DNA of 44,702 bases, from the IMG/VR virus record IMGVR_UViG_3300033553_000300, positions 1 to 44,702 of that record; one strand, given 5' to 3'. A program made the translations under genes and the position numbers. This DNA comes from a virus. This document shows positions 310-38,014 of the stretch, in pieces; position 1 is the stretch's first letter, and each line of letters opens with the position of its first letter. Below the pieces are notes generated by a model, which did no database searches, was not told the origin of the DNA, and saw only the letters and a program-made list of their open reading frames with translations.

Positions 310-350
310 TTTAATTGTATGGTTGCTGTTTTGGCAATCAACTAATTAAA
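310..350 (+). repeat. 41-bp palindromic element, copy 1
   Basis: This is a 41-bp imperfect palindrome with outer arms TTTAATT and AATTAAA, inner arms GGTTGCT and GGCAATC, and loop GTTTT. Pairing is nearly continuous over 18 bp, with mismatches at 318/342 and 319/341. It matches four other copies (9714, 18793, 26540, 37974) in length and sequence. The fixed G at position 13 and T at position 29 orient it on the plus strand. No gene starts directly downstream, unlike copies 2-4. Confidence 0.85.
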
Positions 351-370
351 TCGGTCGCGCCATCCTTGGC

Positions 371-406
371 TTCCGATACTGCTTCCGATACTGCTTCCGA
401 TACTGC
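371..406. repeat. Three perfect 12-bp tandem repeats
   Basis: TTCCGATACTGC is repeated three times without change (371-382, 383-394, 395-406). The array ends in the stop codon of the minus-strand gene at 406-702, so it lies just downstream of that gene. It is too short and lacks spacers, so it is not a CRISPR array. It may be a slippage product or a protein-binding array. Confidence 0.85.
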
Positions 407-702
407 TACCAGATTCTGATCCCTCCAATTGCGCTGGCTACCGCGAGGCGTACCGCGACGTAAACAGATTCCGCGTTGCATTCGTTAAGCCATAGATTCA
501 GGCTATCCTCGAAGTCACAGATCAGCTCCGCCATTCGGTACTGGGTGCGGACACCCTGGGCGGGGCGTTTCGTCACCTCCGTATGGGCTAGCCCGTCAGG
601 GAATTGCACTCCCAGCATGATGCGTCCGTCGCTTAGCCAGCCGGCGGATACGACAATCAGCTCCTGCGCTGCTTTCATTCGTTCAGTGTAGATTTGTTTC
701 AT
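406..702 (-). CDS. Hypothetical protein, 98 aa
   Basis: I do not recognise a family. The protein is soluble, with a lysine-rich start, a central part rich in Gly, Asp and aromatic residues (VSAGWLSDGRIMLGVQF) and an Ala/Val-rich C-terminus. AGGAG lies 8 bases before the ATG. It follows the terminator of the upstream gene at 769-1230, so it probably relies on read-through or an unseen promoter. On the circle it precedes the main minus-strand block across the structured region. Its stop codon abuts the 12-bp tandem repeats. Confidence 0.7.
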   Translation of the reverse strand: MKQIYTERMKAAQELIVVSAGWLSDGRIMLGVQFPDGLAHTEVTKRPAQGVRTQYRMAELICDFEDSLNLWLNECNAESVYVAVRLAVASAIGGIRIW

Positions 703-737
703 CTGGTTTCTCCTGAGATGCTGATCCGTGATGGGTT

Positions 738-762
738 AAAAGAACTGGCCCCGAAGGGCCAG
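738..762 (-). terminator. Rho-independent terminator with TTCG loop
   Basis: Read on the minus strand: CTGGCCC, loop TTCG, GGGCCAG, then TTCTTTT. The 7-bp perfect GC stem with a stable tetraloop sits just past the stop codon of the gene at 769-1230. The paralog at 38659-39147 has the same arrangement. Confidence 0.85.
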
Positions 763-768
763 CTTAGT

Positions 769-1230
769 TTAGATTAGATCTAACGCTTCATCGCCGTCGT
801 CGGATGGTTGCGCCCGCTCCGTCTTAATCGTTAAGATCATCGCCTTAACAGAATCCGCTTTCTTGAGCTGATCCACTTGCTGATCCGTGAGGGCGGCCAG
901 CTTGCTCCGCGCCTCGCTTTCGTCGATTTCTTTGATGCGGGCTATTGCTTCAATTAGCAACGTACCACCAGTTCCACCGCCGCGACGATTCCATTCTTTC
1001 TGGGTTAGCGCTTCGATGACGCCGCCAATTGATGCCTTGGCGTAATTCAAATCGCCCTTCGCGTTCGCGGCGCTATCACCCAGCTTCTGTTTAAACCCGT
1101 GATACATGCCCAGCTCTTTGATCTTATCATCTAACGCTTTCACGTCCAGCGTATCCTTCACGCCATCTGCATACGTTACGACGAGCTGATCCTTGATGGT
1201 TTCGATTGTAAACAGTTTTGCCTTTGCCAT
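769..1230 (-). CDS. Conserved phage protein, paralog of 38659-39147
   Basis: 153 aa. The last 70 residues match the protein at 38659-39147: both have a Gly-rich linker, then a helical part with EAIARIK and a KADSVKA/KADTVKA segment, and an acidic tail ending GDEALDLI or GDEALDLL. The N-terminal halves differ. Such an acidic tail with a hydrophobic tip resembles those of ssDNA-binding or partner-recruiting proteins, but no known family was recognised. I chose the start at 1230 because GGTGA precedes it and because it gives the MAKAK start comparable to the paralog; an upstream ATG at 1281 would add 17 unlikely residues. A possible extended -10 lies about 120 bp upstream and a strong terminator follows, so it is probably a well-expressed single-gene unit. 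Confidence 0.85.
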   Translation of the reverse strand: MAKAKLFTIETIKDQLVVTYADGVKDTLDVKALDDKIKELGMYHGFKQKLGDSAANAKGDLNYAKASIGGVIEALTQKEWNRRGGGTGGTLLIEAIARIKEIDESEARSKLAALTDQQVDQLKKADSVKAMILTIKTERAQPSDDGDEALDLI

Positions 1231-1349
1231 GATATTCACCATTTCGTTAGGGATTGCATAGGGATTGCTTAGGGATTGCATTGTGTACCCGTTCCAGCGC
1301 GTGGGCGGGGTGCCTCGCCAATTCGGGTCATTCCCGTGGCGGTAACTGC

Positions 1350-1358
1350 ATTATACCA
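1350..1358 (-). promoter_or_regulatory. Extended -10 promoter for 769-1230
   Basis: The minus strand reads TGGTATAAT, a perfect -10 hexamer with the TGn extension. A -35 is poor: TTACAG at 19-bp spacing is the best. It lies about 120 bp upstream of the ATG at 1230. Confidence 0.5.
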
Positions 1359-1591: not shown

Positions 1592-1610
1592 TATTAATTG
1601 TATAATTAAA
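1592..1610. repeat. Half-copy of the 41-bp element
   Basis: TATTAATTGTATAATTAAA carries both outer arms of the 41-bp palindrome but lacks the inner TTGCC/GGCAA core. It contains TATAAT on the plus strand (1601-1606) without a good -35. It lies 130 bp upstream of the small terminase gene. Confidence 0.5.
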
Positions 1611-1647
1611 CCACCCCCTCCTCCCCAACCCACCTCGCAGATCCGAC

Positions 1648-1741: not shown

Positions 1742-2284
1742 ATGAGTAAAGTCCAAGTGTTGCGGCTCAGCGAGAAGCACCAACAGATCTTGCAGCATAT
1801 GATCGCGAATCCAAACGATAAGCTCGGCAACGTAGCTGCGACTTTCGATGTTAGCCAGAGCTGGCTTTCCGTCCTGATTCACAGCGATACGTTTCAGGAG
1901 CAGCTGCGAAAAAAGCATGATGAGGTGTTCCATCCAGCCCAACTCTCCCTCCAAGAGCGTTTGACCGGTATGGCTCACCTCGCCCTTGACAAGCTTGGGG
2001 AAGAGATTGATAATGGGAAAGTAAGTGCGCCGGTTCTCCTCGAGACCACTAACAGCGTACTCGATCGCCTCGGGTATGGCTCCAAGCCAGCTGGCGGTAT
2101 GCCGGGAGCGCCAGTCCAGAATAACTACTATCTGGGCAGCGTCCCCTCCAATGTCTTGCACGAAGCAAGGGAAACTTTCGGCGGACGCGCTCGACGCGTA
2201 GACGAAGAGGAAGCAATAAATGTCGAAGCAGATCGGACTTTACCCGAGAAGCTCGAGACCGGCGGGGGTAGTTCTCAGGGCTGA
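1742..2284 (+). CDS. terS: Terminase small subunit
   Basis: 180 aa. Predicted to recognise the packaging site and recruit the large subunit. Residues 10-55 form a helix-turn-helix (NVAATFDVSQSWLSVLIHSD) typical of phage small terminases, followed by a helical oligomerisation region (70-115) and a disordered acidic tail. It lies two genes before the large terminase at the head of the late block. AAGGGGGT stands 8 bases before the ATG. The call rests on position plus the HTH, since small terminases are poorly conserved. Confidence 0.8.
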   Translation: MSKVQVLRLSEKHQQILQHMIANPNDKLGNVAATFDVSQSWLSVLIHSDTFQEQLRKKHDEVFHPAQLSLQERLTGMAHLALDKLGEEIDNGKVSAPVLLETTNSVLDRLGYGSKPAGGMPGAPVQNNYYLGSVPSNVLHEARETFGGRARRVDEEEAINVEADRTLPEKLETGGGSSQG

Positions 2285-9163: not shown

Positions 9164-9718
9164 ATGGCTATACTGGCGACGATTGGCTTAGCGACTTCTA
9201 TCCTTAAGGCGACTGGCCTTGGGGAGAAGATTGGAAACTGGATCGGGGGGGACACCGGTGAACAGGCGGCTAAAAAGATTCTTGATACAGCGCAAGAAGT
9301 CACAAATGCAACGTCGCCGGAGACGGCTGCAGAAGTAATCTCGAAGGACCCAAAGCTGGCGGCAGAACTTAAGCAAGCTCTGATCTCTCAAGAGACAGAG
9401 ATTGTTAAGTTGCATCTTGCTGATGTGCAGGATGCGAGGGCGATGCAGATGCAGGCGATGACCTCGGATGACAAGTTCGTGCGAAGGTTTGTCCATTACC
9501 TAGCTGCCTGCTGGTCTGTTGCCGCGATCAGCTATATTTTCGCGATCTCGTTTCTTACTGTCCCGGAGGACTCATTGCGTTTCGTAGATACTGTTCTCGG
9601 GTTTATACTTGGGACAATTATAGCGCAGATCTTGAATTTCTTTTTTGGTAGCTCTAAAGGCAGTTCTGATAAAACGGCCATGATTAAAGACCAGATGAAT
9701 CAGATGATGCGGAAATAA
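9164..9718 (+). CDS. Holin of the 3TM type
   Basis: 184 aa. It resembles the GTA-type three-TM holin family, which permeabilises the inner membrane for endolysin release. It has an N-terminal amphipathic helix, a soluble helical part containing DPKLAAELKQAL and a DVQDARAMQM segment, then membrane segments at about 109-131 (FVHYLAACWSVAAISYIFAI) and 140-162 (LGFILGTIIAQILNFFFG), and a short charged tail. It is coupled to the preceding coiled-coil membrane protein. The endolysin is not adjacent but lies at 35733-36185 on the other strand. The stop codon lies within a 41-bp palindromic element. Confidence 0.75.
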   Translation: MAILATIGLATSILKATGLGEKIGNWIGGDTGEQAAKKILDTAQEVTNATSPETAAEVISKDPKLAAELKQALISQETEIVKLHLADVQDARAMQMQAMTSDDKFVRRFVHYLAACWSVAAISYIFAISFLTVPEDSLRFVDTVLGFILGTIIAQILNFFFGSSKGSSDKTAMIKDQMNQMMRK

Positions 9719-9754
9719 TTGTATAGTTGCCAAACTAGCAATTACACAATTAAA
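9714..9754 (+). repeat. 41-bp palindromic element, copy 2
   Basis: Outer arms TAATTGT (9716-9722) and ACAATTA (9746-9752), inner arms TTGC (9727-9730) and GCAA (9738-9741), loop CAAACTA. It covers the stop codon of the holin gene and ends immediately before GAGG, the Shine-Dalgarno site of the next gene. As RNA it would be a long hairpin just upstream of the ribosome-binding site. Confidence 0.85.
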
Positions 9755-9765: not shown

Positions 9766-10902
9766 ATGCCAGCTAATATCAAACTAAGTACCCTTTCCGT
9801 TAAGCCTATCCGTCTTCCTACAGGGCGACTAAACACGCAGATAGACTATAGGGATGGGGTTGCCCCCGGAGGCGGAACTCTCCCGGCAGGAAGCATCATC
9901 TTCGAAGATAACTTCGACTCGCAGCCGGATTGGACTGCCGACGAAATCATCCTGGCGCCGAACGTGTTTGATCCTACCGCCGTTCCTCCAGGGTGGTATT
10001 ACGGCAACTCGCGTCCTTTGTGGTCTCCAGCAAAGACTGGCGAATTGGACAAGCACCCTGTAAGTGAAATCTTGGCAGTCAACTCGGGGAAAGCGAAGGG
10101 CAAGACTGGGAAGTCGTTTGTGAAGTGGCGGGAGTCCAGCACAAATGGTCAGTACAACTCTGACGGCATTCTGCTTAAATATTTTCCTGAAGGTCACGAC
10201 GAAATCTACGTTGAGTTTGAGATTATGCTTTCAGAGCTGATCTTTGACTTGGCTACTGGTGGTACGGCTGGTGCCACTAAAGTATTCCGGTGCTACTACT
10301 ACGACGAGACGACAGGAGAGCCTACTAATTATTTCAGCTCCAATACTCCGTTCCATGTCTGGGACTTGGCGCTTGATGATCAGTCCGCCTTCGGCTGCCG
10401 CAATTTCCAGAATTTCCGGGCACGTGGCGCGGCCCTCATTAAGGATTCCATACAGGCGGAGCTTGGCCGTGCGATGAATGGCGGGGATGTTTCCTTGGGA
10501 TACGCTGCAGCGTCTATGACTGGGAGGGCGGTAGGTGGCGGCGACCCAGAGCTAACAGATAGGCTTAATGGAGGCATCATTGGGGCAAGCCCAGTCCTCG
10601 CAAGACAGATATTCGGGGCGGAAGACGAATGGGTAAAGGTAGCATTCTACTACAAGATGAACTCCGCGCCCGGCGTGGAAGATGGTTTATTCATGCAATG
10701 GATAGACGACAAGCGTGTCGTCCTTGTAACAAAAGCGGCTTGGGTAGGCGCTGATGCTAGTATGGTTAAGTGGAACATGATCGGCATAGGTGGCAACAGT
10801 AAGGTTGACCGGTACTCGGAGGCTGTGCAGTACGAGGACTGGTTTTCTATTGATAACATTGCAGTTTATAATGGAATCCCCCCTAATAGAGGACTTGTCT
10901 AA
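9766..10902 (+). CDS. Putative lectin-fold virion protein
   Basis: 378 aa. I see FEDNFDSQPDW near residue 45, then alternating strands with many aromatic residues (IYVEFEIMLSE; WVKVAFYYKM; GLFMQWIDDK), as in concanavalin/LamG-type or polysaccharide-lyase-like beta-sandwiches. This is fold resemblance only. Position in the virion block, coupled by TAATG to the next Ig-like protein, suggests a decoration or host-surface-binding protein. It is the first gene after palindromic element copy 2 and has GAGG 8 bases upstream. Confidence 0.55.
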   Translation: MPANIKLSTLSVKPIRLPTGRLNTQIDYRDGVAPGGGTLPAGSIIFEDNFDSQPDWTADEIILAPNVFDPTAVPPGWYYGNSRPLWSPAKTGELDKHPVSEILAVNSGKAKGKTGKSFVKWRESSTNGQYNSDGILLKYFPEGHDEIYVEFEIMLSELIFDLATGGTAGATKVFRCYYYDETTGEPTNYFSSNTPFHVWDLALDDQSAFGCRNFQNFRARGAALIKDSIQAELGRAMNGGDVSLGYAAASMTGRAVGGGDPELTDRLNGGIIGASPVLARQIFGAEDEWVKVAFYYKMNSAPGVEDGLFMQWIDDKRVVLVTKAAWVGADASMVKWNMIGIGGNSKVDRYSEAVQYEDWFSIDNIAVYNGIPPNRGLV

Positions 10903-11675
10903 TGCCTTTAGAACTCAGAGTAAACCTCGCCCACGGCCCAAGCGTAGCGAACGACGCCAATTGGGTGCACCAAAACGTAAACGCTGATACCTTGGACGTT
11001 GTGGATTTCAACACCGGGCTCGCTACTGGCGTTGACATAATCCTTGGGACAATTTTCCAGAGCGCGGTAACGAGTGTCGGCGCTGGCGGTTCTGCTTGCT
11101 CGGGTGATGCGGCATGGGCTGGAAGCACCGCCAACCTCGGAGGGTGGGTACTAACCGCTTCTTGGAGTGACGTAGAGTACCAGAACTTAGACCCGGCTAA
11201 AAAGTACTGTGTTGAGTTTTACGGGCTGTCCTCCAGTGGCGGGCCAAAACCAATTGATACCAGAGTTAATGGTGGGGCTGTAGTAACTCTTCCAGATGTA
11301 GTACAAAATTTTACTGATGTAGCGCAGCATTTGGATATATCCCCTGATGTATCTGGAACGATAAAAGTAGAGTTTCAGGACGGCGGCGGCAGCGGTGTTA
11401 TATCAGCCATGCGCCTATATGAAGTTGCAGGACCTACGGTAACTCTCAATCAAACTGAACTTACCCCTGGCGGAACTATTTCAGGAACCTACAGCAATTT
11501 CTCAAGTACTCCGACTAGCCCGCTAACTCTCACAGATAGCAATGGCAACACAATCTCTGTCCCTGTGACAGTGGATAGCGGAGCCAAAACTTGGACTGGA
11601 ACAATGCCAGCACTTCCTACTTCCGGTAGCATTGCTGGATTGCTCTTCGGAAATATTGATGTGGAGCTGAGCTAA
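10902..11675 (+). CDS. Putative carbohydrate-binding/Ig-like virion protein
   Basis: 257 aa. Residues 1-175 look like a jelly-roll module (GGWVLTASWSDVEYQNLDP, then YCVEFYGLSSSG and TIKVEFQDGGG), similar in style to galactose-binding or CBM folds. Residues 178-257 look like an Ig-like domain (VTLNQTELTPGGTISGTYS). The family is not verified. Start and stop both overlap neighbours by TAATG, so it is translated together with the Ig-adaptor fusion. A surface or neck appendage role is inferred. Confidence 0.55.
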   Translation: MPLELRVNLAHGPSVANDANWVHQNVNADTLDVVDFNTGLATGVDIILGTIFQSAVTSVGAGGSACSGDAAWAGSTANLGGWVLTASWSDVEYQNLDPAKKYCVEFYGLSSSGGPKPIDTRVNGGAVVTLPDVVQNFTDVAQHLDISPDVSGTIKVEFQDGGGSGVISAMRLYEVAGPTVTLNQTELTPGGTISGTYSNFSSTPTSPLTLTDSNGNTISVPVTVDSGAKTWTGTMPALPTSGSIAGLLFGNIDVELS

Positions 11676-17580: not shown

Positions 17581-18783
17581 ATGGTATGGGGAGCGATTGC
17601 AGGTGGTCTTGCTTCATCACTTCTTCCTAGCTTGCTAGGCGGTGGCGGTGATAGCGGGCAGCAGACAACTACGAATACGCCTTGGAATTCCCAACAGCTC
17701 CAAGAGCTAATGACGATGGGTAAGGACCGCTATGAGGCGGGGCCTAACACGTATTATCCAGGCAGCACAGTAGCTGACATGGACCCAAGGCTGCAACAGA
17801 CTCTCAATCAGATGATGGGGTTTGGCAGTTCAGGTCTTCCAGCTGCGGGCAGTGATGCGCTGTCACAAGCAATGCAGGGGACACAATCCCTCGGCGGGCA
17901 GGTGGGGCAGGAGCAGGTCTCTGGAACGGGGGATTATGCGAAGTTTCTGATGAACCAAGCGCAGGGCGGGCAGCCAGGAAACGCAGGACAAATCGCAGCT
18001 AATGCTGATCCTACTGCGGCGTTCCAGCAATTCCTCGGAGGCAGCGCTACAAATCCTTACGTCGATCAGTTGGTTGGGAATGTTACATCTGATATCTCAA
18101 GAAATCTCAACGAGAATATCATGCCGAGGATTGACCAAGGCTCCCTCGCTAACAACGCGTATGGAGGGTCGAGGCAGGGCGTCGCTCAAGCCGGCGCTAT
18201 AGATAGTGCGAATCGACAAGCTGGTAATGCTGCCACCTCTATCAGAGCGAATGCGTATGAGTCTGATCAAGGCCGGAAGCTTAGCGCTGCGAACAGTATG
18301 CTGGGTGCGGCAGGCTCAGGGGATGCGTACCAGCAATCGCTCCAGCAAATGGGGTTATCTGGCGCGAACCTTGGAAGAGGTCTATTCCAGGATCTGGCCG
18401 GCATCACTTCGCAGCAAGCGAGTATGGCCCCACTCATGCAGGCTTACGAAGGGATGAATCTGAGTACGCAAGCACAAGGTGGCCAAGCTCAGCAGCAATA
18501 TCTGCAGTCGCTGCTTAGTGATAAGGTTAATGCGTATAATTTCAACCAGCAAGCGGATGATCAGAATTTCCAGAACTATGCGAATCTACTCCTTAATGCG
18601 AGCGGTAGTGGCGGAACGACTACGCAGAATACTCCTCAGGCTTCTATCGGGGAAAGACTGCTTGGCGGGGTATCATCAGGTATTGGTGTGGCAGGTCAAC
18701 TGCAGAATCTATTCGGTCAGCAGGCGCAGCAACCGCAGCAGACACAACCTCAACTAAGTTCGGTTCAGGCGTCTAGGATGTAA
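17581..18783 (+). CDS. Probable DNA ejection (internal virion) protein
   Basis: 400 aa, rich in Gly, Gln, Ala and Ser. A hydrophobic Gly-rich N-terminus (GAIAGGLASSLLPSLLGGGG) is followed by TPWNSQQLQELMTMGKDRYE and YYPGSTVADMDP, a pattern common in podovirus internal virion or minor tail proteins located after the nozzle gene. The middle is helical with many Asn and Gln, and the C-terminus is poly-Gln-like. It should be packaged in the head and ejected with DNA. No enzymatic motif is seen. Confidence 0.65.
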   Translation: MVWGAIAGGLASSLLPSLLGGGGDSGQQTTTNTPWNSQQLQELMTMGKDRYEAGPNTYYPGSTVADMDPRLQQTLNQMMGFGSSGLPAAGSDALSQAMQGTQSLGGQVGQEQVSGTGDYAKFLMNQAQGGQPGNAGQIAANADPTAAFQQFLGGSATNPYVDQLVGNVTSDISRNLNENIMPRIDQGSLANNAYGGSRQGVAQAGAIDSANRQAGNAATSIRANAYESDQGRKLSAANSMLGAAGSGDAYQQSLQQMGLSGANLGRGLFQDLAGITSQQASMAPLMQAYEGMNLSTQAQGGQAQQQYLQSLLSDKVNAYNFNQQADDQNFQNYANLLLNASGSGGTTTQNTPQASIGERLLGGVSSGIGVAGQLQNLFGQQAQQPQQTQPQLSSVQASRM

Positions 18784-18792: not shown

Positions 18793-18833
18793 TTTAATTA
18801 TGATGTTGCTACTTTGGCAATCATACAATTAAA
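18793..18833 (+). repeat. 41-bp palindromic element, copy 3
   Basis: Outer arms TTTAATT (18793-18799) and AATTAAA (18827-18833), inner arms GTTGC and GGCAAT, with mismatches in between. It fills the gap between two virion genes and ends exactly at GAGG, the Shine-Dalgarno site of the gene at 18846. Confidence 0.85.
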
Positions 18834-24984: not shown

Positions 24985-26181
24985 TTAGGCAACCTCGGAG
25001 ATGGTAGGGATAAGCAGTACCTTACCATCTTCCACCTTCCTCGTAACTAGCTGCGCCTTCACGGCGGATTCTAGTCCCTCCTTGAATTGGTTGAAACTCA
25101 TATTATAGAATAATTTTGAATAGGCTTGGTCAGGAGTAAGCGGCCCGTTCGCTCGTAGAAGGTTAACAATGTTATTGGCCTTCTGGACAGAGTCGTCTCC
25201 AATCTTTTCAAAGACTTTCGGGAGGAATTTTTCGTTCTCCGAGAGAATGGCGTCGGCAGCCTGAAGGTGCTCCTTCTCAATGATAAGAGAGTTTGACTGC
25301 GCGACTGTGAGTATGATGGCCAGCTTATGCATATGGGTCTGTTTGCGTGCAAGATAAGAAGCGACCCGTTCACTTGCAAGTTCCGGAGGACGCTCAGTGT
25401 AAAGCCGTTCGTACCAATCCGTCCCCCAGGCTTTGGCCTCCGCAGAAAGTTTAACTTCGCCCTTACAGTTCTTGGCCATATCACGAAGGTCGTGCACAAG
25501 ATCTGCTTGGCGCTGCTTGAATCCCTTGGGGATTGCGTCGTCAAGGTACGCACAAAAATGCCGTTTCTTGTCGCCATAAACAAAGATTGTACGGGAGACA
25601 AAGCCACCTCCTATCATATATTCCGGGAAGTTATCTGCTATCCAGTGTGGAGTTGTGCAGGCAACTATGTTGATCCAGGGGTTGACGATTGCATCTTCCC
25701 CGCAAGTTTTAGTTCTCTTCTCAAAGGTTCCCACCTGACCGTCCCACAAATCAACAAGCACGTCTACCATCTCGCGATCCTGTGGATTCAGGAAGGTTCC
25801 GAACTCCGAAGAGAGGATTGTTATTGGGCTCATTGGGACTAGCTGGTTGTTGATGTTGACGGTGATCTGCGCCTCGGCGAGACTGGTTACGAGACTCTGC
25901 CAAGTGATTATGTTTGGGCCGAACGTTACTCCTTGCACCTGCTTCAGTAAGTCCATCCCTATCTTCGCGGTAGTGGACTTTGATATGATACCGGCTGGTG
26001 CGACAAATACAATGTAAAAGTTTGGAGTCCATTGAAAGTGATATTGATCTATCCAGACCTGTCGACGGAGAGCACCTGCGATTGTGCTGACTGCCGTCCA
26101 GAAGTGGAAGCGATCGGGAGCTTCACTATGCTTTGAATACTCCATGTAAGCTTTTATGAAGTCGCTATGTTTACGAGCCAT
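24985..26181 (-). CDS. DUF3987-like replication ATPase/helicase
   Basis: 398 aa. A RecA-fold ATPase of the DUF3987 type is likely: YIVFVAPAGIISKSTTA is a Walker A-like loop (P-x-G-x-x-SKST) near residues 58-68, ILSSEFGTFL a Walker B-like strand, and IVACTTPHWI a sensor strand. The C-terminus looks like a winged helix (NGPLTPDQAYSKLFYNMSF). Such proteins act as replicative helicase or the helicase half of primase-helicases. No separate primase or DnaB-type helicase was recognised, so this is the best helicase candidate. Its start overlaps the DUF1937 gene end by 1 bp. Confidence 0.7.
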   Translation of the reverse strand: MARKHSDFIKAYMEYSKHSEAPDRFHFWTAVSTIAGALRRQVWIDQYHFQWTPNFYIVFVAPAGIISKSTTAKIGMDLLKQVQGVTFGPNIITWQSLVTSLAEAQITVNINNQLVPMSPITILSSEFGTFLNPQDREMVDVLVDLWDGQVGTFEKRTKTCGEDAIVNPWINIVACTTPHWIADNFPEYMIGGGFVSRTIFVYGDKKRHFCAYLDDAIPKGFKQRQADLVHDLRDMAKNCKGEVKLSAEAKAWGTDWYERLYTERPPELASERVASYLARKQTHMHKLAIILTVAQSNSLIIEKEHLQAADAILSENEKFLPKVFEKIGDDSVQKANNIVNLLRANGPLTPDQAYSKLFYNMSFNQFKEGLESAVKAQLVTRKVEDGKVLLIPTISEVA

Positions 26182-26528
26182 TATTTGAACCTTAACCTGA
26201 GGGCGTCTTCCTCCAAGTAGGTGGGCTGGAGGTTGAGCCTCGCTGCCTCACGAATCTCAGCGCGGAGGCCAAGACTTTTCTCCCAGCCTTCGAGTGGTAG
26301 AATCCATATTTCAGAACATCTCGAGAGAGCTCTGAAGTTAAGTTCGCGCCAGAAAGTGAAATCGCCTGGCAGGTGGAACCGAACTGCAATATTATGGTAA
26401 TGCACAATAGGGGAGTAGATAAGGAATCCGAGCTTGGTATAGTCAGCTGTAACTCGTAAGGCCGCGTCATAGCGTGACTCCCTCACTCGGGTATCTGGAT
26501 CTGTGTATGGTTGGGCAAGGTAGATCAT
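26181..26528 (-). CDS. DUF1937 family protein
   Basis: 115 aa, full length for the family. MIYLAQPYTDPD, then RYDAALRVTADYTKLGFLIY, SPIVHYHNIA, and IWILPLEGWEKSLGLRAEI match the DUF1937 pattern, a Rossmann-like fold related to nucleoside 2-deoxyribosyltransferases. A role in nucleotide metabolism is possible; the enzyme activity of the family is not established. GGAG lies 6 bases before the ATG, directly after palindromic element copy 4. It is coupled to the DUF3987-like gene downstream. Confidence 0.85.
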   Translation of the reverse strand: MIYLAQPYTDPDTRVRESRYDAALRVTADYTKLGFLIYSPIVHYHNIAVRFHLPGDFTFWRELNFRALSRCSEIWILPLEGWEKSLGLRAEIREAARLNLQPTYLEEDALRLRFK

Positions 26529-26539: not shown

Positions 26540-26580
26540 TTTAAAAGTATAATTGCCAACATAGCAACAATATAATTAAA
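26540..26580 (-). repeat. 41-bp palindromic element, copy 4
   Basis: Read on the minus strand it begins TTTAATTATATTGTTGC and ends GGCAATTATACTTTTAAA. The right outer arm carries two mismatches. It fills the gap between the polymerase stop (26582) and the DUF1937 start, and ends 2-3 bases before the CGGAG Shine-Dalgarno site. Confidence 0.85.
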
Positions 26581-26581: not shown

Positions 26582-29098
26582 TCACGCCACAAGCGCCCCC
26601 TTATCGAAATCCCATTCTGCACAGTCGCCCCAGCTTTTATCACTGATCTTTGCGCCTACGGGAATAAGCAAAGGGTCATCATATGGTACAACAATTTCCA
26701 TCTCCTTACGGATTTTTCTCAAACACTCGACGCGACGATCTGCCGGATATTCAAACACCCCCGAGTCGTGAACCTGCAGCAACGGATAGCATTCATCTTG
26801 GACGAGATTCTCGTCTACGTTAACTATCCCTTTGTCGATAACGATCGCGACGGTGGACTGGGGAATCCATGCCAACGCTTCAGGCAGGAGACCTTCAACC
26901 CTATCGAAATAGTATCGACGGAAGCCGAACTTATTGTAGACGCAGCGCTCAACCATCAGCTGTCTCTCAATGCGATTCTGCCAATCGCGGATACCTGGGT
27001 AGGTAGAGAACCACTTCGATTGGGCAGCTTCCGATTCCATAATAGTGCAGTGTGCAACGATTGCCATGGTGCGAGCGGAACCGCCGTAGTTGGTGCCGTG
27101 TACGAAAGCCTTTGCGAAGTCCCTATGAGCTTTGTATTTCTCCTTAATCCGTGCAAGAAGAACCGGATCACGCAGGTCATCGACGGAGTATGGAAGATCG
27201 AAGAGAACCTGTGCGTTAGCGAGGTGAAGATCAATCCCCTCCTTCAGGAGGAGCTTAAGTCGATCTTCGTCTGCTTCCCACACCACGACTTGAAGGTCAG
27301 CTCGGTCGAGGTCGAAGTCTGCGATCTCGAATCCCTCGTCAGGAATGAACATTCGCTTAACGTTGGGTGCCTGAAATCTTTCGGCTCCTTTAGATTTTTC
27401 AGGGTTGGGTATATTCTGCAGGTTCCCTCCGGAGTTGAAAGCATTTTCTGAACTGCTATACCGATACGTTTCTGTGCCAGCGATGTTGTAACTGCAGCGC
27501 AGTCGTCCATCCATATCTGTTCGCATTTGTACGAAGGTGCTGGATAAGACTCCGATGCTGCGATAATCAAGGATCGCGTTACATACCGGCTTAAGAAGGG
27601 GTGTCCGTTTGCCAATCTTTGTAAGAGCATCATCGTTTGTAGTAGGGCGTTTTGTCTTGCGATCGACGATAATCGGCTGTCCCAGCTCTTCATAGAATAG
27701 TTCAGCCATTTGCTTGGGAGACTTAGGGTTGACGTCCCTTCCAATGAATTTATGGACTGCAGCAAGGCGCTCATTTGCGGCATTGTTAAGAATCCAAAAT
27801 AGGTAGTCCTGTGCTTTGTCATCACGGCGTACTCCTCGCAGCATCATACGTATGGTAGTGCGGAGGTTGTGTTTTTGCTGGAACTCATTCTGCTCAGTCA
27901 GGTTGAACTTATCGACCATCCCTCTCAGCACTGTTGCACACTCGTAAGTGACTACGCAATCCTTACAGTTGTACTCCCACAGTCTGCGCTCGTCGTGATG
28001 TTCAAGGTCGAAGTGTTTCCCATCATCCTTCCAGTACTGGTGGAATCGACAGTACATGCTCGAGATAAAGTCCAGGGATTTTTTGAGTCCTGCCCAGCAG
28101 ACGTGGTGCGCCACCATCGTATCAAAGTCCGGCAGTGCATCACAGTTCCACCATCTGAACCAGTACTGAACATCGTAGCTACCATTTTGAGTCTCAATCA
28201 AAGCGTTCGGGTGGGAGAAAAGATCCTTGAGAGCGAGGATGATATTGCGTTCCTGCAGGAAAGACCAGTACCCCTCCGGGCGCCGGGCCTTCATCAGTGG
28301 GATGCAAATAGCATCGACATTGCTCCAACCAATCCCACAGCAAGCAGTATGTCCACTACGTGTTTCGAGATCCACGGCCAACCGTGTAGGTTGTGTTTCC
28401 ACGCGGAGACGTAGCTTGCGAATAGTAGACATAACTGTCGCGTAGTCAGGAGCCACAATAAAATTATACTCAGGAAGAATCCAAGCGTCATCATTGAGCG
28501 CCCTCCGCAGGTCGTGCTTAATGAAGTAGGTATCGGAAAAGTTTCTGCGTGCTGTCGCCGGACTAACGATCGGCATAAGGCGAGCGGTTGTTCCGTCCTC
28601 ATAGGTGTAGAAGAGCTGACTGCCCCGCCACTTTGTTATGCCAGCTTCTCCGGTCAACGCGTAGAGAGCTACGTTACCGGCGGCGATGATGATCTTTGGG
28701 CGAACCTCTTCAAGAAGCTTCTTCAGGTTAGCGAAGTGCTTATCTACTCCGAGTGCTAGTTTGACATTCTTCCCACTCTTCTTAACGTATTGGGATGGGT
28801 CGCCCCTCGGAGCAGGACGACAGATTGCATACGTCTTGCTGCAGGCAGCGAAGTCGATCCCCCCATCGGCGAAGAGCGACTTAACGAATCGGCTGTAGTT
28901 TCCGCTGAAGGGGCGCTGGTTGTTTACGTCATCCTGCGTGGGGCATTCCCCGACGACAAGAATCTCAGAGCCGTTTATCTCCGGCAGAATTGTAGGATGG
29001 CCGACACTGATCTGTGCGGCTTTCGCTTTGGCTGGTTTCTTGGCAGGAGCTTTCGCTCCCTCCTGCACAAGATCATCCAGTAAAGATGATGCTGTCAT
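26582..29098 (-). CDS. Family A DNA polymerase with N-terminal UDG-like domain
   Basis: 838 aa. Residues about 45-200 resemble family 4 uracil-DNA glycosylase: VVGECP (48-53), PFSGNYSRF, ICRPAP, IIAAGNVALYALTG and a RGSQL turn. The motif-2 His-Pro-Ala is Ser-Pro-Ala (IVSPATARR, S179), and most iron-sulphur cysteines are missing. The 3'-5' exonuclease follows: DLE (D243, E245), NGSYD (305-309), YNCKD (376-380). The polymerase motifs are A (DFDLDRADLQ, 594-603), B (RDFAKAFVHGTNYGG, 659-673) and C (VHDS, H777 D778). I chose the start at 29098 because AGAGGAT lies 8 bases upstream; upstream in-frame codons overlap the 88-aa gene. SPO1-type phage polymerases have a comparable UDG-like N-terminus. 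It is the replicative polymerase. Confidence 0.92.
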   Translation of the reverse strand: MTASSLLDDLVQEGAKAPAKKPAKAKAAQISVGHPTILPEINGSEILVVGECPTQDDVNNQRPFSGNYSRFVKSLFADGGIDFAACSKTYAICRPAPRGDPSQYVKKSGKNVKLALGVDKHFANLKKLLEEVRPKIIIAAGNVALYALTGEAGITKWRGSQLFYTYEDGTTARLMPIVSPATARRNFSDTYFIKHDLRRALNDDAWILPEYNFIVAPDYATVMSTIRKLRLRVETQPTRLAVDLETRSGHTACCGIGWSNVDAICIPLMKARRPEGYWSFLQERNIILALKDLFSHPNALIETQNGSYDVQYWFRWWNCDALPDFDTMVAHHVCWAGLKKSLDFISSMYCRFHQYWKDDGKHFDLEHHDERRLWEYNCKDCVVTYECATVLRGMVDKFNLTEQNEFQQKHNLRTTIRMMLRGVRRDDKAQDYLFWILNNAANERLAAVHKFIGRDVNPKSPKQMAELFYEELGQPIIVDRKTKRPTTNDDALTKIGKRTPLLKPVCNAILDYRSIGVLSSTFVQMRTDMDGRLRCSYNIAGTETYRYSSSENAFNSGGNLQNIPNPEKSKGAERFQAPNVKRMFIPDEGFEIADFDLDRADLQVVVWEADEDRLKLLLKEGIDLHLANAQVLFDLPYSVDDLRDPVLLARIKEKYKAHRDFAKAFVHGTNYGGSARTMAIVAHCTIMESEAAQSKWFSTYPGIRDWQNRIERQLMVERCVYNKFGFRRYYFDRVEGLLPEALAWIPQSTVAIVIDKGIVNVDENLVQDECYPLLQVHDSGVFEYPADRRVECLRKIRKEMEIVVPYDDPLLIPVGAKISDKSWGDCAEWDFDKGALVA

Positions 29099-29339
29099 TG
29101 TCGCGATCCTCTTTGTTTTCTTCCTCGTGAACCCCTCCGATCTGCTGCACGTACGGCTTGATCGTATCATCGAAGAGGAGTTCGATCTCTGAATCCGATT
29201 CGAGGATGAACTTCCCCCGCTCACCACTCTTTGCTGGGTAGGCGGGAACGCAGTACTCCCTATCCTCATCCACGATGAAGTACTGGCCGACGCGCCAGAC
29301 TGGGTTCTGCATAATCACTATGTAGGTGTGACGTTTCAT
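29073..29339 (-). CDS. Hypothetical acidic protein, 88 aa
   Basis: No family recognised. It begins MKRHTYIVIMQNPVWRVGQY and has strand-rich character (YFIVDEDREYCVPAYPAK), then an acidic C-terminal tail (GGVHEEENKEDRDND). It overlaps the polymerase start by 26 bp and begins in a TAATG overlap with the zinc-finger minigene, so it is translated as part of the replication operon. It may be a small KOW/SH3-like or regulatory protein, which is a guess. Confidence 0.75.
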   Translation of the reverse strand: MKRHTYIVIMQNPVWRVGQYFIVDEDREYCVPAYPAKSGERGKFILESDSEIELLFDDTIKPYVQQIGGVHEEENKEDRDNDSIIFTG

Positions 29340-29503
29340 TATAAGGTACCTGAAGCGATGTAGTAAATTTTTCCTGTAGCATTACACATAACGCACCGAC
29401 CCTCTCCCCGCCCTCCTTGCCCGAAGCACCAAGGGCATTGGGCTTTCTTCAATCCAATAAGTTTGCCCAACTTTACCTTAAAGTAGTGGGATACTTTGCT
29501 CAT
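29339..29503 (-). CDS. DnaJ-type zinc-finger minigene, 54 aa
   Basis: 54 aa. The sequence CPWCFGQGGRGEGRCVMCNA holds two CxxC knuckles with the CxxCxGxG spacing of the DnaJ central zinc finger, after a basic helix (VKLGKLIGLKK). It binds one zinc in all likelihood. The start overlaps the methyltransferase stop (ATGA) and the stop overlaps the next start (TAATG), which supports real translation. Its function is unknown; a DNA- or protein-binding accessory is possible. Confidence 0.75.
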   Translation of the reverse strand: MSKVSHYFKVKLGKLIGLKKAQCPWCFGQGGRGEGRCVMCNATGKIYYIASGTL

Positions 29504-30816
29504 TCGATCTCCTCCTCAGCATAGCTTGCGTAGATGAAGTCTACTTTCTCTTTGTTAAGCTCGATCCCTGTAGCGGTAAGCGAAAGCGTACCTGCGGCTC
29601 GGAAGACTGGCCCGGCTCCGCAGAATGGGTCCAGCACCTTATCTCCTGGATCACAAGACCTGGAAAGTAGTTCCTCAAATAATGAGACAGGTTTCTGAGC
29701 GCCGAAGGTGGGGCGGGCGAGTGCTTGGACTGACAGTACATCAGGTCCAACACACCTGGTCTTGCGTCCTCCACGACGGCAATACACAATTGCTTCGTAT
29801 GTGTTTCGAGGGCCATACTCAGGGGCTGGGAGCATTCCGGCGTTGTTCCCTTTAAACCAAAAGAGAGGACGATACCAAACAGTCCATCCGGATGCTTCGA
29901 ATATATCTCTGATTTCTGCGAAGAGTCCAATGTCGCAGAAGGTGTAGAGGTGGGCACTGTCTTTGCACACTCGCGCGCCTTGCTCAGCAAGTATTTTGTA
30001 GAGGGAAAGTGCATAATCTTTTGAATCCTCGTATGCGTGGTTTGCTTTTGCTTGTTCGCCGAAAGAATCTGCATCGACCCCGTAAGGGGGATCAGTTATG
30101 ATGCAGTCAAAGGTATCATCAGGAAGGTTCTCGATTATGGTTTCCATCCTGCCACAGCGTAGATCGTGCGGGAAAGCTGAGGTGTTTATCTGCGCCCCAA
30201 ACTCTTCCGCGAGGCGAGCCCTGTGCGCTGCCTGCCGCTTCTTGCCGATGATCTTCAGAGCTTCCTTCTGAGTTTTTGCGCCAGCTACATCATCATCATG
30301 CAGATACTCATTGAGAACCCGAGCCTCTCGAACTTCCTTCTGGGCTGTGCCAGAGTCGGTAACGGGCACCCCCAGGATTTCGGCAGCAACATCCCGCTGA
30401 CTATAACGTTCCCCTCGAGCCTGAGCCTGCTGCTTGCGGAGGGTTTCAAGGCGGGAGATTGCGGCTGCCCGATCTTGCCAGGAGAGTTCTTCTCTGTGAA
30501 TGTTCTCATCGAGTTCCGCCTCTTCAAGTTCTTCCTGAGTTAGCTCACCGAGTTTCATCACGGGGATATGCCCGTCAGGTACGGCGTCGCCCCCGTAGGT
30601 GAAGCGCTTTTCATTCTCATACAACTGGAGGACTGCCCGCAGTCTGCACTCTCCCGCGACGAGGGTCTTGCCGTCATCGCGCAGAACGATAGGATGCAGG
30701 AGACCCTTCGCTCCGCAGAAGCTGTCCTCGAGATCGTTGAGGTGTTGTGGGTTGATCCGCTTTCGCTGGCGGTCTTCAGGAACTACGATTGATTTAGCTG
30801 GGACGTAAGTTGTCAT
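29500..30816 (-). CDS. ParB-like/N6-adenine DNA methyltransferase fusion
   Basis: 438 aa. Residues about 1-130 are a ParB/sulfiredoxin-like domain (LLHPIVLRDDGKTLVAGECR, 39-58; then LDENIHREELSW). Residues 135-200 are a helical HTH-like region (YSQRDVAAEILGVPVT). The MTase domain has the catalytic DPPY (242-245) before the SAM-binding LDPFCGAG (395-402), the beta-type order of N6-adenine or N4-cytosine methylases. No partner restriction enzyme is nearby, so it is an orphan methylase that may protect phage DNA or mark replication sites. It is coupled by TAATG to the dUTPase gene upstream. Confidence 0.88.
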   Translation of the reverse strand: MTTYVPAKSIVVPEDRQRKRINPQHLNDLEDSFCGAKGLLHPIVLRDDGKTLVAGECRLRAVLQLYENEKRFTYGGDAVPDGHIPVMKLGELTQEELEEAELDENIHREELSWQDRAAAISRLETLRKQQAQARGERYSQRDVAAEILGVPVTDSGTAQKEVREARVLNEYLHDDDVAGAKTQKEALKIIGKKRQAAHRARLAEEFGAQINTSAFPHDLRCGRMETIIENLPDDTFDCIITDPPYGVDADSFGEQAKANHAYEDSKDYALSLYKILAEQGARVCKDSAHLYTFCDIGLFAEIRDIFEASGWTVWYRPLFWFKGNNAGMLPAPEYGPRNTYEAIVYCRRGGRKTRCVGPDVLSVQALARPTFGAQKPVSLFEELLSRSCDPGDKVLDPFCGAGPVFRAAGTLSLTATGIELNKEKVDFIYASYAEEEIE

Positions 30817-33090: not shown

Positions 33091-33097
33091 ATGGTTA

Positions 33098-34497: not shown

Positions 34498-35485
34498 TTT
34501 CCAACTCCTTAATCTGTTGTGTGATATCGGTCGGTTCATGGATTGTCCGTAGCTTATCGTCAAGGGTTCCCTCTCCGGTCACAGGATTCCACAGGTTATC
34601 TACGAAGTTTACATCGAGCCACTTCGCGGGGTTTTTCGCGCCGCATACGATCTGGTAAGGGCAACCGCCGTACGCAGAGCAGCCTTCGGCAAAGTCGTAG
34701 CTCCAATCGCCGGACATATAATCCCGGCTGATATTGAAGCAATCTCGCTGAAGCTCCACGAGGTAGCGGTCGATCACATGAGGGGGGATCATGATTGGCA
34801 CTTCGGCGAAACCAATCTGGCCTGTCTTCGTGATCTTGCAGCCTCGGACGATTGCGCCTGGGACTGCATAACCGTAGGCCTGAGCGGCCCAGCAGTAACC
34901 GATGAACTGGCCTCGGAGAGTCCACTGCGATCCCCACTTCGGGCCGAGCTGGCCGGTGGTCTTCTCGTCCGTCGGCCAAAGGTATTTCATATTCTCCCCT
35001 CGGTGTGCAAGCATATCGAGCCTGCCTACGTAGAGGAATGGTTCGCCTGTAATGGGGTGCTTCGTCCCAGGGATTGGGATGGCGAAGGAGAACTCAACGG
35101 CAGGCTTCCCGCAATCTCTCACGAAGGGGAGGACGTCGCTGCCTGCCATGTCGTACTCCTCGAAGTAAGCCCGGAGCAAGTGTAACATTGTCGGTAAGGT
35201 CTTCCCAGACTCCTGCGGATCGGGCTCTTCATCAGCGCCGTGGAGGTACGCCCGGTAGAGGGCGACCTCGCCGACCTCGATTGCCTGCTCCCATGGGAGG
35301 TTGTGGAGGTAGCGGGCGATGCGGACTTCCTCGCAACCTTTGGCGAAAGCTTTACCTGCGGTGAGGTGGATGGAGCTGTGCGCGGATACCTTACGCAGGA
35401 CGTACGCGTTGTAGAACTTTTGTGGACAGGTGCGGTACGTGCTGCGCATAGTTCCATCTATGTAGATTGGGAGTTCTGGTTTCAT
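34484..35485 (-). CDS. Cas4-like PD-(D/E)XK nuclease with Fe-S cysteines
   Basis: 333 aa. RecB/Cas4-type exonuclease fold: YRTCPQKFYNAYV at the N-terminus (C20), GRLDM (D157), TDEKTT (D173-x-K175) and QFIGY (193-197) supply the nuclease motifs. Three cysteines near the C-terminus (C269, C275, C281) together with C20 match the four-cysteine iron-sulphur cluster of Cas4/AddB-type nucleases. In phages this class processes DNA ends for recombination next to Sak4 and ssDNA-binding proteins, all within 4 kb here. No CRISPR array is present. Confidence 0.87.
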   Translation of the reverse strand: MKPELPIYIDGTMRSTYRTCPQKFYNAYVLRKVSAHSSIHLTAGKAFAKGCEEVRIARYLHNLPWEQAIEVGEVALYRAYLHGADEEPDPQESGKTLPTMLHLLRAYFEEYDMAGSDVLPFVRDCGKPAVEFSFAIPIPGTKHPITGEPFLYVGRLDMLAHRGENMKYLWPTDEKTTGQLGPKWGSQWTLRGQFIGYCWAAQAYGYAVPGAIVRGCKITKTGQIGFAEVPIMIPPHVIDRYLVELQRDCFNISRDYMSGDWSYDFAEGCSAYGGCPYQIVCGAKNPAKWLDVNFVDNLWNPVTGEGTLDDKLRTIHEPTDITQQIKELENVST

Positions 35486-35733
35486 GCTGTAAACTCCTTA
35501 AAGAAAGATTCCACTGCGGTCTCCAGATCGTCGTACTGCGACCTTGAAAGGAAGTCGAGAAGCTCTTCCTCGGTTAGTGAAATGATGCGTTTCTGCGAGA
35601 GCTGAATGAACTCACTCAGTGGAGCTATATGACACAGCGGGCAGACAAACTCGTCAAGCGGAGTTATCACCCGAGTCACGGTAATTTCCGCTGAGCAAGA
35701 GGGGCATTTAAGTCTTCCTGTTTTAGTTGTCAT
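35482..35733 (-). CDS. Zinc-ribbon protein, 83 aa
   Basis: CPSC (10-13) and CPLC (31-34) form a rubredoxin-like zinc ribbon, followed by an acidic helix (LTEEELLDFLSRSQYDDLET). ATGA overlap with the Cas4-like gene downstream and TAATG-type overlap with the endolysin upstream. It could be a DNA-binding or adaptor protein for the nuclease; this is inference. Confidence 0.75.
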   Translation of the reverse strand: MTTKTGRLKCPSCSAEITVTRVITPLDEFVCPLCHIAPLSEFIQLSQKRIISLTEEELLDFLSRSQYDDLETAVESFFKEFTA

Positions 35734-36185: not shown

Positions 36186-36200
36186 TGTCTTTAGTTCCCC

Positions 36201-36538: not shown

Positions 36539-36777
36539 GGCAGGGTTACTCCTTTCTTCGGCGAGGTTGGGGTCACTGGGATTGCATGCCCTGGCTCCAT
36601 TCCCAGCGTCACGTAAGCGTAGCCGATTGGGATATAGACTGAGTGATCGCATCCCACGCAATGGTACCTTACACCCCGTGAGTAATCCACAGGGCAGTTG
36701 TTGTGCTGGTAGGCGAGGACTTCGGTAGCTCCCTGCCTCGGCATTTCGGTTAAGCAATCAGCGCATATTGGGTTCAT
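36535..36777 (-). CDS. Zinc-ribbon protein, 80 aa
   Basis: CADC (5-8) and a second pair CVGC (40-43) form a zinc ribbon. It ends Lys/Thr-rich. Two bases separate it from the gene upstream. Function unknown. Confidence 0.7.
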   Translation of the reverse strand: MNPICADCLTEMPRQGATEVLAYQHNNCPVDYSRGVRYHCVGCDHSVYIPIGYAYVTLGMEPGHAIPVTPTSPKKGVTLP

Positions 36778-36779
36778 AC

Positions 36780-37049
36780 TTAGCTCTCCCAGGTCTTGTC
36801 ATGTATGCTCCCGAAGAAGCAGTATCTATCTACGAGCTGCGGCAGCTGCATCCGGCGGCGAGCCCAGTAGGGGCCGGTACCTGTTGTGATGAAGCCGCCT
36901 AGCTCTACTATGGCGAGGTCTGCCCTGTGCTGGTTGCCGTAGATGTGGACGACCTGCCACAACACATCAAGCCGTATGTCGTACCATAGGCTCCCCAGCA
37001 AGAGGGGGCAGTCACTCCTCTTGAGTCTCGCTGCTTCGGTTGCCAGCAT
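36780..37049 (-). CDS. Hypothetical protein, 89 aa
   Basis: Begins MLATEAARLKRSDCPLLLGS and contains YDIRLDVLWQVVHIYGNQHR, with an amphipathic strand-rich core. I chose ATG 37049, which overlaps the previous gene by 38 bp; the frame is open further upstream but that part is antisense-like and Ser/Arg-rich. A Shine-Dalgarno site is weak (GGGCGG). Function unknown. Confidence 0.55.
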   Translation of the reverse strand: MLATEAARLKRSDCPLLLGSLWYDIRLDVLWQVVHIYGNQHRADLAIVELGGFITTGTGPYWARRRMQLPQLVDRYCFFGSIHDKTWES

Positions 37050-37278
37050 ACCGCCCAAGATCTGGAGTAAATGGTTCCGCCTCCGATCCCGCAGAGATTT
37101 GCTCCTCGAGCCATCGGCGGAGGATTTTCTCGATGAGTTGTGATCGCGCTCCATATTTAATCTTCCCTGTCATAGGGTTGAGAAGAAGAAGGTCAATCTT
37201 TGCGGCGAGCCCTTCCGGGATCAATGCGTTGTAAGGAACCTTCTGTTCGTCTTGCGCCTTGCGTCCACGCTTAGCCAT
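37012..37278 (-). CDS. Ribbon-helix-helix-like small regulator, 88 aa
   Basis: A basic N-terminus (MAKRGRKAQ) is followed by LIPEGLAAKIDLLLLNPMTG and SQLIEKILRRWLEEQI, a pattern like small CopG/Arc-type DNA-binding proteins. It is preceded by GTGAGGTACTACTA, nearly identical to the leader before 36201-36407. It may control phage transcription. The family call is tentative. Confidence 0.6.
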   Translation of the reverse strand: MAKRGRKAQDEQKVPYNALIPEGLAAKIDLLLLNPMTGKIKYGARSQLIEKILRRWLEEQISAGSEAEPFTPDLGRYAGNRSSETQEE

Positions 37279-37889
37279 TAGTAGTACCTCACTTGCTTAG
37301 CTGCTGGTTTGTTCGGCTCGGAGGGCAGAGATGATATGTTCATAGGTCTCGAGGTTTTGCCTAATGTGTCTGACCAGAGCGTCTGAAATGACGGTATTGC
37401 CCATGCCTGAGGCACGCAAGGGAGTGAGGGATAAGGCGATGATTCTTGGGTCTGCGTTAGCTGAAGGTCTAGGCATAAGGATTCCTGATTTGAGAGAAAG
37501 CATTGGTGACAGTAAAGGGATTCAACGTATCGCGTCTCGACCTTCCGGGGGAGGGCTTCCACTTCCTTGCGTGGGAGCAGGTTGAAGTTGTGGGCTTCAA
37601 CGAGGTGCCGGCCATGGCGTCTGTGATAGCGCTCGATGAAGATCGAAGGGTTGGGGGCTTCGCTAGAAGAGCCGCAGCATGTGCATGTTGTGTGGACTGT
37701 GATGAGGGTTACGGAGAGGGCTCGCCACTCGAGTTGCTGGTAGACGTCTCGACGGATCGGAGGGCCATCTTCAAGGGGTTGCTTCGACTTGGTTTCTTCG
37801 ACCTTCTTTGCAGCTTTTTTAATTGTCGCTGCGCGGGAGGCTTTCTTACCTTCTTCAAGGAGGTCTGCGAGGATGTCTAATTCAGCCAT
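37278..37889 (-). CDS. Zinc-ribbon hypothetical protein with doubtful C-terminus
   Basis: 203 aa. A charged helical N-terminus (MAELDILADLLEEGKKASR, then a Lys-rich run) is followed by a zinc-ribbon-like pair, TCTCC (C69, C71, C72) and CHQC (127-130). After residue 130 the sequence loses protein-like character, while a second frame (37297-37503) that starts inside CHQC looks well formed. A frameshift or sequence error may separate them. AGGAG lies 7 bases before ATG 37889. First gene of a minus-strand transcript that starts near 37943. Confidence 0.65.
   Translation of the reverse strand: MAELDILADLLEEGKKASRAATIKKAAKKVEETKSKQPLEDGPPIRRDVYQQLEWRALSVTLITVHTTCTCCGSSSEAPNPSIFIERYHRRHGRHLVEAHNFNLLPRKEVEALPRKVETRYVESLYCHQCFLSNQESLCLDLQLTQTQESSPYPSLPCVPQAWAIPSFQTLWSDTLGKTSRPMNISSLPSEPNKPAAKQVRYY
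37297..37503 (-). CDS. Overlapping frame: hypothetical 68-aa protein
   Basis: Begins MLSLKSGILMPRPSANADPR and continues IIALSLTPLRASGMGNTVIS, then RHIRQNLETYEHIISALRAE. This is more protein-like than the longer frame over the same bases. Either it is a separate overlapping gene, or it is the true C-terminus of the gene at 37278-37889 joined by a +1 shift near 37503. No Shine-Dalgarno site is clear. Confidence 0.5.
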   Translation of the reverse strand: MLSLKSGILMPRPSANADPRIIALSLTPLRASGMGNTVISDALVRHIRQNLETYEHIISALRAEQTSS

Positions 37890-37942
37890 TTCTTTTCTCC
37901 TGCTGGGTGCCCTGGGCATGGGCGGTTTTTCATTGTTATTTA

Positions 37943-37971
37943 ATTGTATAATAGGAGAACGGAGGTTGCAA
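37943..37971 (-). promoter_or_regulatory. Sigma70-like promoter of zinc-ribbon operon
   Basis: Minus strand: TTGCAA (37971-37966), 17-bp spacer, TACAAT (37948-37943). The -10 lies in a half-copy of the 41-bp element. It drives the minus-strand genes from 37889 down. Confidence 0.5.
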
Positions 37972-37973
37972 CA

Positions 37974-38014
37974 TTTAATTGTAGGATTGCCGTTTTGGCA
38001 ACTACACAATTAAA
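37974..38014 (-). repeat. 41-bp palindromic element, copy 5
   Basis: Outer arms TTTAATTGT and ACAATTAAA are perfect over 9 bp; inner arms TTGCC and GGCAA flank a 5-base loop. It lies between the terminator of one transcription unit and the promoter of the next. Confidence 0.85.

Follow-up and report, generated by a model that had tools for sequence, protein, structure and literature searches.

Five copies of a 41-bp inverted-repeat element lie along a viral genome, the 44,702-base record IMGVR_UViG_3300033553_000300, which we analysed over its full length (hereafter the window). We propose that these copies are probably operators, i.e. double-stranded DNA sites for a phage-encoded and probably dimeric regulator at the starts of transcription units. 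A sequence-only reading of the window had offered three explanations for the elements (processing hairpins, operators or mobile promoter cassettes), and operators are the one supported by our analysis. In the proposed mechanism, a fast-changing regulator encoded by the phage would bind two near-palindromic units in each element and control transcription where transcription units begin. Elements of similar plan were found in related phages, often at homologous gene junctions but with different letters, and in the five phages compared complementarity within elements does not exceed that between elements.

The window contains five oriented copies of a two-unit element

The copies are located at 310..350 (element 1), 9714..9754 (element 2), 18793..18833 (element 3), 26540..26580 (element 4) and 37974..38014 (element 5), and both the positions and the length given by the sequence-only reading were exact. 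When each copy was left out and scored with a symmetric position weight matrix built from the other four, it reached 44.8–54.1 bits, while the best other place in the window scored at most 2.8. The core GTTGC-N7-GCAAT has five matches, all of them the copies, with 0.07 expected from dinucleotide shuffles. As this oriented core matches exactly at the five copies and only there, the fixed G13 and T29 reported earlier were confirmed. Along the record, the core lies on strands +, +, +, − and −. Each copy has 17-bp arms and a 7-bp spacer, and columns 3–7, 13–17, 25–29 and 37–41 are invariant. The starts of these blocks are 10, 12 and 12 bp apart, approximately one helical turn, a spacing that would suit contacts along a single face of the DNA.

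The elements were said to lie between genes and, by our own gene calls, four overlap no gene and one overlaps a gene by 5 bases; only 4.9% of 41-bp windows have 5 or fewer coding bases. Elements 2 and 3 sit within the structural gene block and end 11 nt and 12 nt before the ATG codons of the genes at 9766-10902 and 18846-19868, respectively. Element 4 lies between the DNA polymerase A gene (26582-29269) and a nucleoside 2-deoxyribosyltransferase-like gene (26181..26528, minus strand), 11 nt before the ATG of the latter. These three copies had been described as ending at a Shine–Dalgarno (SD) site. Indeed, an SD-like stretch precedes each ATG, but that at 18793 fails a stricter SD rule. Element 5 is positioned just after a terminator-like hairpin with a T run (38018..38036, minus strand) and upstream of a gene ending at 37278, whose putative start codon is some 45–54 nt further on. 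The proposed agreement between G13/T29 orientation and gene direction holds for elements 2, 3 and 4, and also for element 5; element 1 (plus strand by G13/T29) has no start close by.

Each arm holds a near-palindromic 12-mer (AATTGTATAATT), so an arm is more than half a hairpin. With up to two mismatches, the 14-mer TTAATTGTATAATT has 10 matches in the window, compared with a mean of 0.13 for shuffled patterns. The unit also occurs singly: an exact TTAATTGTATAATT is present at 1594-1607 (feature 1593..1609) in the divergent region 1281/1742, upstream of a small-terminase-like gene, and a further unit is found at 37940-37953 (feature 37939..37955). The same unit is present in a distant phage, Vibrio phage VS-ABTNL-3 (MF497422), whose capsid protein is 47–49% identical to that of the window phage. 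VS-ABTNL-3 has 7 matches to the 14-mer, compared with 0.75 for shuffled patterns (maximum 4). Its units are mostly paired, 23–24 bp apart, and start codons follow three of its elements at 8, 9 and 15 nt.

Capsid-protein comparison confirmed 479 relatives and matched more. Among the top 30 listed from 80 other capsid-protein relatives (mostly partial contigs), the 14-mer count was never above the shuffled-pattern maximum, and a scan of viral contigs for the whole element pattern gave 0 matches. The unit pattern with one mismatch was present in 13 of 41 relatives, hardly above a reversed control except in genome G022. A paired-unit pattern in four viral contigs was judged to be chance; these are AT-rich, and none gave a BLAST match to either phage. 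One of the four equals the window in length, which we regard as coincidence.

Relatives carry differently spelled families at homologous junctions

The comparison covered 27 genomes, the window and VS-ABTNL-3 among them (other genomes are labelled G or L), a sample biased towards contigs in which repeats were seen first; gene calls in relatives are our own. Self-comparison of intergenic DNA revealed families of 30–42-bp elements in 18 of the 27, spelled differently from phage to phage. Intergenic repeat pairs (26–49 nt, more than 1.5 kb apart) numbered 76, compared with 1.3 after shuffling (three shuffles each); not all of these pairs are elements, and 7 are in genomes without an accepted family. 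For 15 genomes, models trained within each genome found 66 sites that exceed the best score in ten shuffles; the window contributes six model sites, of which one overlaps element 5. For VS-ABTNL-3, G022 and G033, 13 sites were placed by hand from unit matches, giving 79 elements in 18 genomes. A home-made expectation-maximisation motif search was dropped as too noisy, its top motif being recognisable as the element only in the window and G004.

The spellings include TGTATGGCGGGGTAATG in G004, GACTATATGGTGTGYAA in G032, AATTATTGYATCTT in G020, GCCCCGGGGAATA in G034 and TAAGTGTGTCG in G033. Spacing is nearly constant within one phage and differs between phages, with a 17-mer offset of 24 in the window, 20–21 in G004, 18 in G032 and G020, and 16 in G034. 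Because the letters of the elements range from AT-rich to GC-rich between phages, we infer that the regulator is encoded by the phage. Desulfofustis phage OP947158 (L156) has nine copies (up to 4 mismatches), between 245 and 42973, of a long near-perfect palindrome like CTATGTCCCAAATTGGGACATAG; several of these palindromes precede an ATG by some tens of nt, and they are among the most regular families seen. In a non-exhaustive look, no element family was recognised in G001, G008, G013, G019, G025, G031, L007, L008 or L010, and none was found in PaMx41 or Tiera.

Element positions were compared with random intergenic placement (400 runs), counting elements whose centre lay at most 160 bp upstream of a gene. 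For the small-terminase-like gene, 11 of 18 genomes had an element upstream, against a mean of 1.26 and at most 5 under random placement; the single unit at 1594 in the window is outside these 11. The corresponding counts were 4 of 8 genomes for the deoxyribosyltransferase-like gene (random 0.27, maximum 2) and 4 of 13 for Sak4 (random 0.49, maximum 3). Because the genomes are relatives of one another, the counts should not be read as independent trials. In agreement with a link to gene starts, an SD-preceded start lay 4–25 nt from the edge of 25 of the 79 elements in the 18 genomes, compared with 445 of 5336 random intergenic windows. In G004, 16 nt separate the element at 17852-17889 from the start of the capsid gene downstream, which was missed by our gene call. 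For the sequence-only reading, a lack of copies at equivalent boundaries in relatives would have counted against its interpretation: elements do stand there in a fair share of the relatives, as at the small-terminase-like gene, but are spelled differently. Matching positions with different spelling suggest a shared gene-control system, the code of which is rewritten from phage to phage.

Promoter-like signals at the elements

Alternatively, the elements could themselves be complete promoters for the host polymerase, perhaps with a phage factor, so that transcripts start in or just after the element. We consider this rather unlikely, but it is the strongest competitor to operators. Sigma70-like scores of at least 10 were present at 11 of 156 element orientations compared with 39 of 2104 control windows, and scores of at least 9 at 33 of 156 compared with 127 of 2104. 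Several units contain TATAAT or TACAAT, and strong matches are found in relatives: TTGACA-18-TATAAT at G004:5753(−), with the −10 in the left arm of the element; TTGACA-17-AATAAT/CATAAT at G005:18652 and 21237; and a near-consensus TTGACA-17-TATAAA/G promoter ending at the element at G020:22384 and G014:25049. Near-consensus promoters (TTGACA-17-TATAAG/A) are noted at L104:5019-5084 and L102:2350-2420, with the −10 ending right at an element in G014 and G020. Promoters within such repeats have some precedent, as SigA-like hexamers are reported in the extended start-associated sequences (ESAS) of mycobacteriophage Adephagia (PMC11373665) and intergenic repeats of halovirus HF2 are reported to give promoter activity (PMC8707807).

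Against complete promoters, the score of 10 is reached at only those 11 orientations, and the units of G034 (CCCCGGGGAATA) have no TATAAT-like hexamer. In the window, promoter-like matches are only 9/12; they overlap four of the five elements, and two of these four point against the gene. They include a weak TTGATT-16-TACAAT at element 1 (341-314, minus strand). A further promoter-like match, TTGCAA-17-TACAAT (37971-37943, minus strand), has its −10-like TACAAT in the single unit at 37939..37955. Moreover, transcripts starting just after the window elements would have only 11–12 nt before the ATG.

The promoters that overlap elements in relatives fit an operator placed over the start point. 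Because some of these sigma70-like promoters overlap elements near the start point, repression was considered, and we lean towards repression or timing control rather than activation. For the window itself, with matches of 9/12 at best and two of four facing the wrong way, the transcriptional step would hold by analogy with the relatives.

The third early suggestion was mobile cassettes like the promoter–stem-loop elements (PeSL) of T4-type phages, in which a sigma70 promoter is followed by a stem-loop and the whole is a mobile unit. In the window, what could correspond to such a promoter is limited to the 9/12 matches, which overlap four of the five elements and in two cases face away from the gene. 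The letters differ between phages while positions recur at homologous junctions rather than being scattered, which argues against mobility.

Search for the regulator

Several results weigh against operators at transcription-unit starts. For ten other gene families, the number of genomes with an upstream element was 0 to 2, which lies in the random range, and 54 of the 79 elements have no strict SD start within 25 nt. Six families (G014, G007, G002, G026, G027 and G028) comprise just two or three copies. Model hits within open reading frames also occur (e.g. G034:12326, G007:20172 and G017:38162) and are perhaps false. Within the structural operon, 9714 and 18793 have no clear promoter in the gene direction, and transcripts from one placed there would have practically no 5′ leader. 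The window copies also fold as single strands (z −1.95 to −5.25). Finally, a regulator was sought in the protein sets and helix-turn-helix (HTH) scans described here and none was identified. Operator similarity across 17 genomes followed the identity of none of 16 protein sets (rho −0.14 to 0.13), the small-terminase HTH among them (rho 0.09, P = 0.21). A Pfam scan of 29 minus-strand window proteins gave no clear HTH match, and each of the HTH families listed for 94 small proteins from five relatives was matched by a single protein. As operator similarity tracks no tested protein set, operators turn over independently of the core genes.

Individual candidates were also considered. The protein family FAM8 has hidden Markov model (HMM) hits in 25 of 27 genomes and a structural model with a mean predicted local distance difference test score of 87; there are four unnamed viral matches and no PDB match at E ≤ 0.001. 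FAM8 was set aside because OP947158, with its nine palindromes, has no FAM8 hit. The product of 35482-35733 (minus strand), an 83-aa protein with a sub-cut-off zinc-ribbon match (E = 1e-5), is a possible small DNA-binding protein; fam20, a zinc-ribbon family, was another family looked at. A sub-cut-off HU-like match (E = 0.005) was found for 38659-39147. This gene and 769-1281 (both minus strand) are paralogues of a conserved early protein family with HMM hits in 25 of 27 genomes, and a confident model of this family has a three-strand/two-helix part and a helical part, with no PDB match at E ≤ 0.001.

The terminase raises another alternative, namely that the elements serve a different DNA transaction such as packaging (through the small terminase), replication or partition, which we regard as improbable. 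The small-terminase-like HTH gene (FAM11; 1742..2284, plus strand, in the window) has HMM hits in 26 of 27 genomes and its relatives often follow an element; G020, G014 and G007, whose elements are spelled similarly, share a similar recognition helix. However, there are several dispersed copies, located at gene starts on both strands, and the operators of the window and VS-ABTNL-3 are among the most similar pairs (0.74) even though their terminase HTHs are only 19% identical. The small terminase as regulator is likewise unsupported by operator co-variation.

The elements behave as DNA sites rather than RNA hairpins

If the arms paired in RNA, complementarity should be better within elements than between them. 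We compared the two in the five phages with elements in register (4 to 7 elements each). Within-element complementarity was lower than between-element complementarity in four phages: 12.6 versus 13.6 of 17 positions in the window, 11.4 versus 13.0 in G004, 11.25 versus 12.5 in G032 and 11.5 versus 13.0 in G020. In the fifth, G034, the values were equal (11.25 versus 11.25 of 13). Permutation P values for better pairing within elements were 0.98, 0.999, 1, 1 and 0.75 (window, G004, G032, G020 and G034). It is as if one arm were usually nearer the consensus than the other, which would give a poorer match within elements. A wider test (60 elements) gave 392 pairs within elements versus 514.6 expected from cross pairs, the same direction, but is not used as evidence because many of its elements are off-centre.

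Column-wise comparison of the window copies agrees with this. Between columns 8–12 and 30–34, 12 of 25 cells are Watson–Crick, 3 are G-T and 4 are A-C, and the changes are mostly uncompensated; at column pair 12/30, one copy has G-C where another has A-T. In VS-ABTNL-3, three paired-unit elements fold no better than shuffles (z −0.50, 0.31 and −0.11). The units at 26991/27014 in G033 repeat in the same direction, 23 bp apart, making a hairpin impossible there. A scan of the window with Rfam gave no match at the gathering threshold. The absence of a within-element pairing excess and of a fold in the three VS-ABTNL-3 elements points to a DNA site. RNA hairpins just upstream of the SD, as RNase III-type processing sites (an early suggestion) or 5′ stabilisers, are thus very improbable: the folding of the window copies and the placement of three of them 11–12 nt before an ATG would suit such hairpins, but arm pairing is not selected and units also occur singly or as direct repeats.

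Comparison with known repeat systems

Among the papers listed in literature searches, none was seen to describe such elements in this phage group. The closest known elements are the ESAS of Cluster K mycobacteriophages. Pope 2011 (PMC3203893) describes these as 17-bp inverted repeats, imperfect and separated by a short spacer, that immediately precede some start codons; their consensus is subcluster-specific, RNA pairing is unsupported, the left repeat is closer to the consensus and the individual repeats of TM4 and Pixie are symmetric in themselves. Those authors judged DNA-binding proteins more likely. The 2024 paper that describes the SigA-like hexamers still calls the role of ESAS unclear (PMC11373665). 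Our elements resemble ESAS in being a pair of imperfect inverted repeats of about 17 bp with a short spacer, in standing immediately upstream of starts (three of five window copies and 25 of the 79 elements) and in having arms that do not covary as RNA.

Nevertheless, we do not classify them as ESAS because the start-associated sequence (SAS) is lacking in the window, structural genes are included and the rewriting is far deeper. For the 13-bp SAS GGGATAGGAGCCC, which stands at the SD, the window has two 2-mismatch matches with 1.14 expected, and neither is at an element. ESAS are restricted to the non-structural half of the genome, unlike elements 2 and 3. The SigA-like −35 and −10 inside ESAS have counterparts of 9/12 at best in the window and strong ones in some relatives. 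Among our relatives the whole spelling and spacing change, in one case to direct repeats. Furthermore, the named relatives here infect Vibrio, Microcystis and Caulobacter rather than actinobacteria.

Other systems share fewer features. Cluster A stoperators are reported as dispersed 13-bp asymmetric sites for a monomeric phage repressor that stops transcription (PMC9283540, PMC6550527); their specificities diverge between relatives, as here, but our units are near-palindromic, paired and linked to gene starts. Cluster O phages have dispersed, symmetric 17-bp dyad repeats, many of them intergenic, with function given as unknown and 34 near-identical copies in Corndog (PMC4351075). As described there, these are single dyads, near-identical and not tied to starts. 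The HF2 elements are likewise intergenic, repeated and conserved in position among relatives. In contrast to ours, they are reported to be archaeal virus promoters with a sequence strongly conserved within the genus (PMC8707807). An episomal state without recognised lysogeny genes is reported for phage Shea, a member of the PaMx41/PaP2 group; we draw no link to it because no elements were found in PaMx41.

Other features of the window

The record ends in a 141-bp terminal direct repeat and is therefore circular or terminally redundant. Near this repeat, a 44-nt inverted repeat (4-47/205-248, 84% complementary, 157 nt apart) flanks a run of 22 A. The polymerase at 26582-29269 (minus strand) combines uracil-DNA-glycosylase-superfamily and 3′-5′ exonuclease domains in one protein, and a scan for related loci found one distant locus. 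The gene at 29500-30816 (minus strand) encodes a DNA methyltransferase whose N terminus carries a ParB-like domain, a match below the Pfam cut-off but supported by PHROGs. In the 988-aa product of 11675-14641 (plus strand), three stretches of bacterial Ig-like domains precede an SU10-type adaptor domain. No tRNAs were found in the window.

Implications for regulation in this phage group

Sites that stay in place while their letters are exchanged are what one would clearly expect of operators that co-evolve with the protein binding them. Tentatively, and with less confidence than for the operators themselves, we suggest that this podovirus-like group may follow one plan. Paired operators would stand at homologous operon boundaries, and their letters, spacing and unit orientation would be rewritten repeatedly and independently of the core genes. 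Relatives would thereby be insulated from each other's regulator, which may belong to an unrecognised family of DNA-binding proteins. The elements give uncultured phages a readable regulatory map, for which VS-ABTNL-3 is a cultured test case, and they bear on the unsolved function of ESAS in mycobacteriophages. They also let one ask how a regulon with many sites changes its code all at once.

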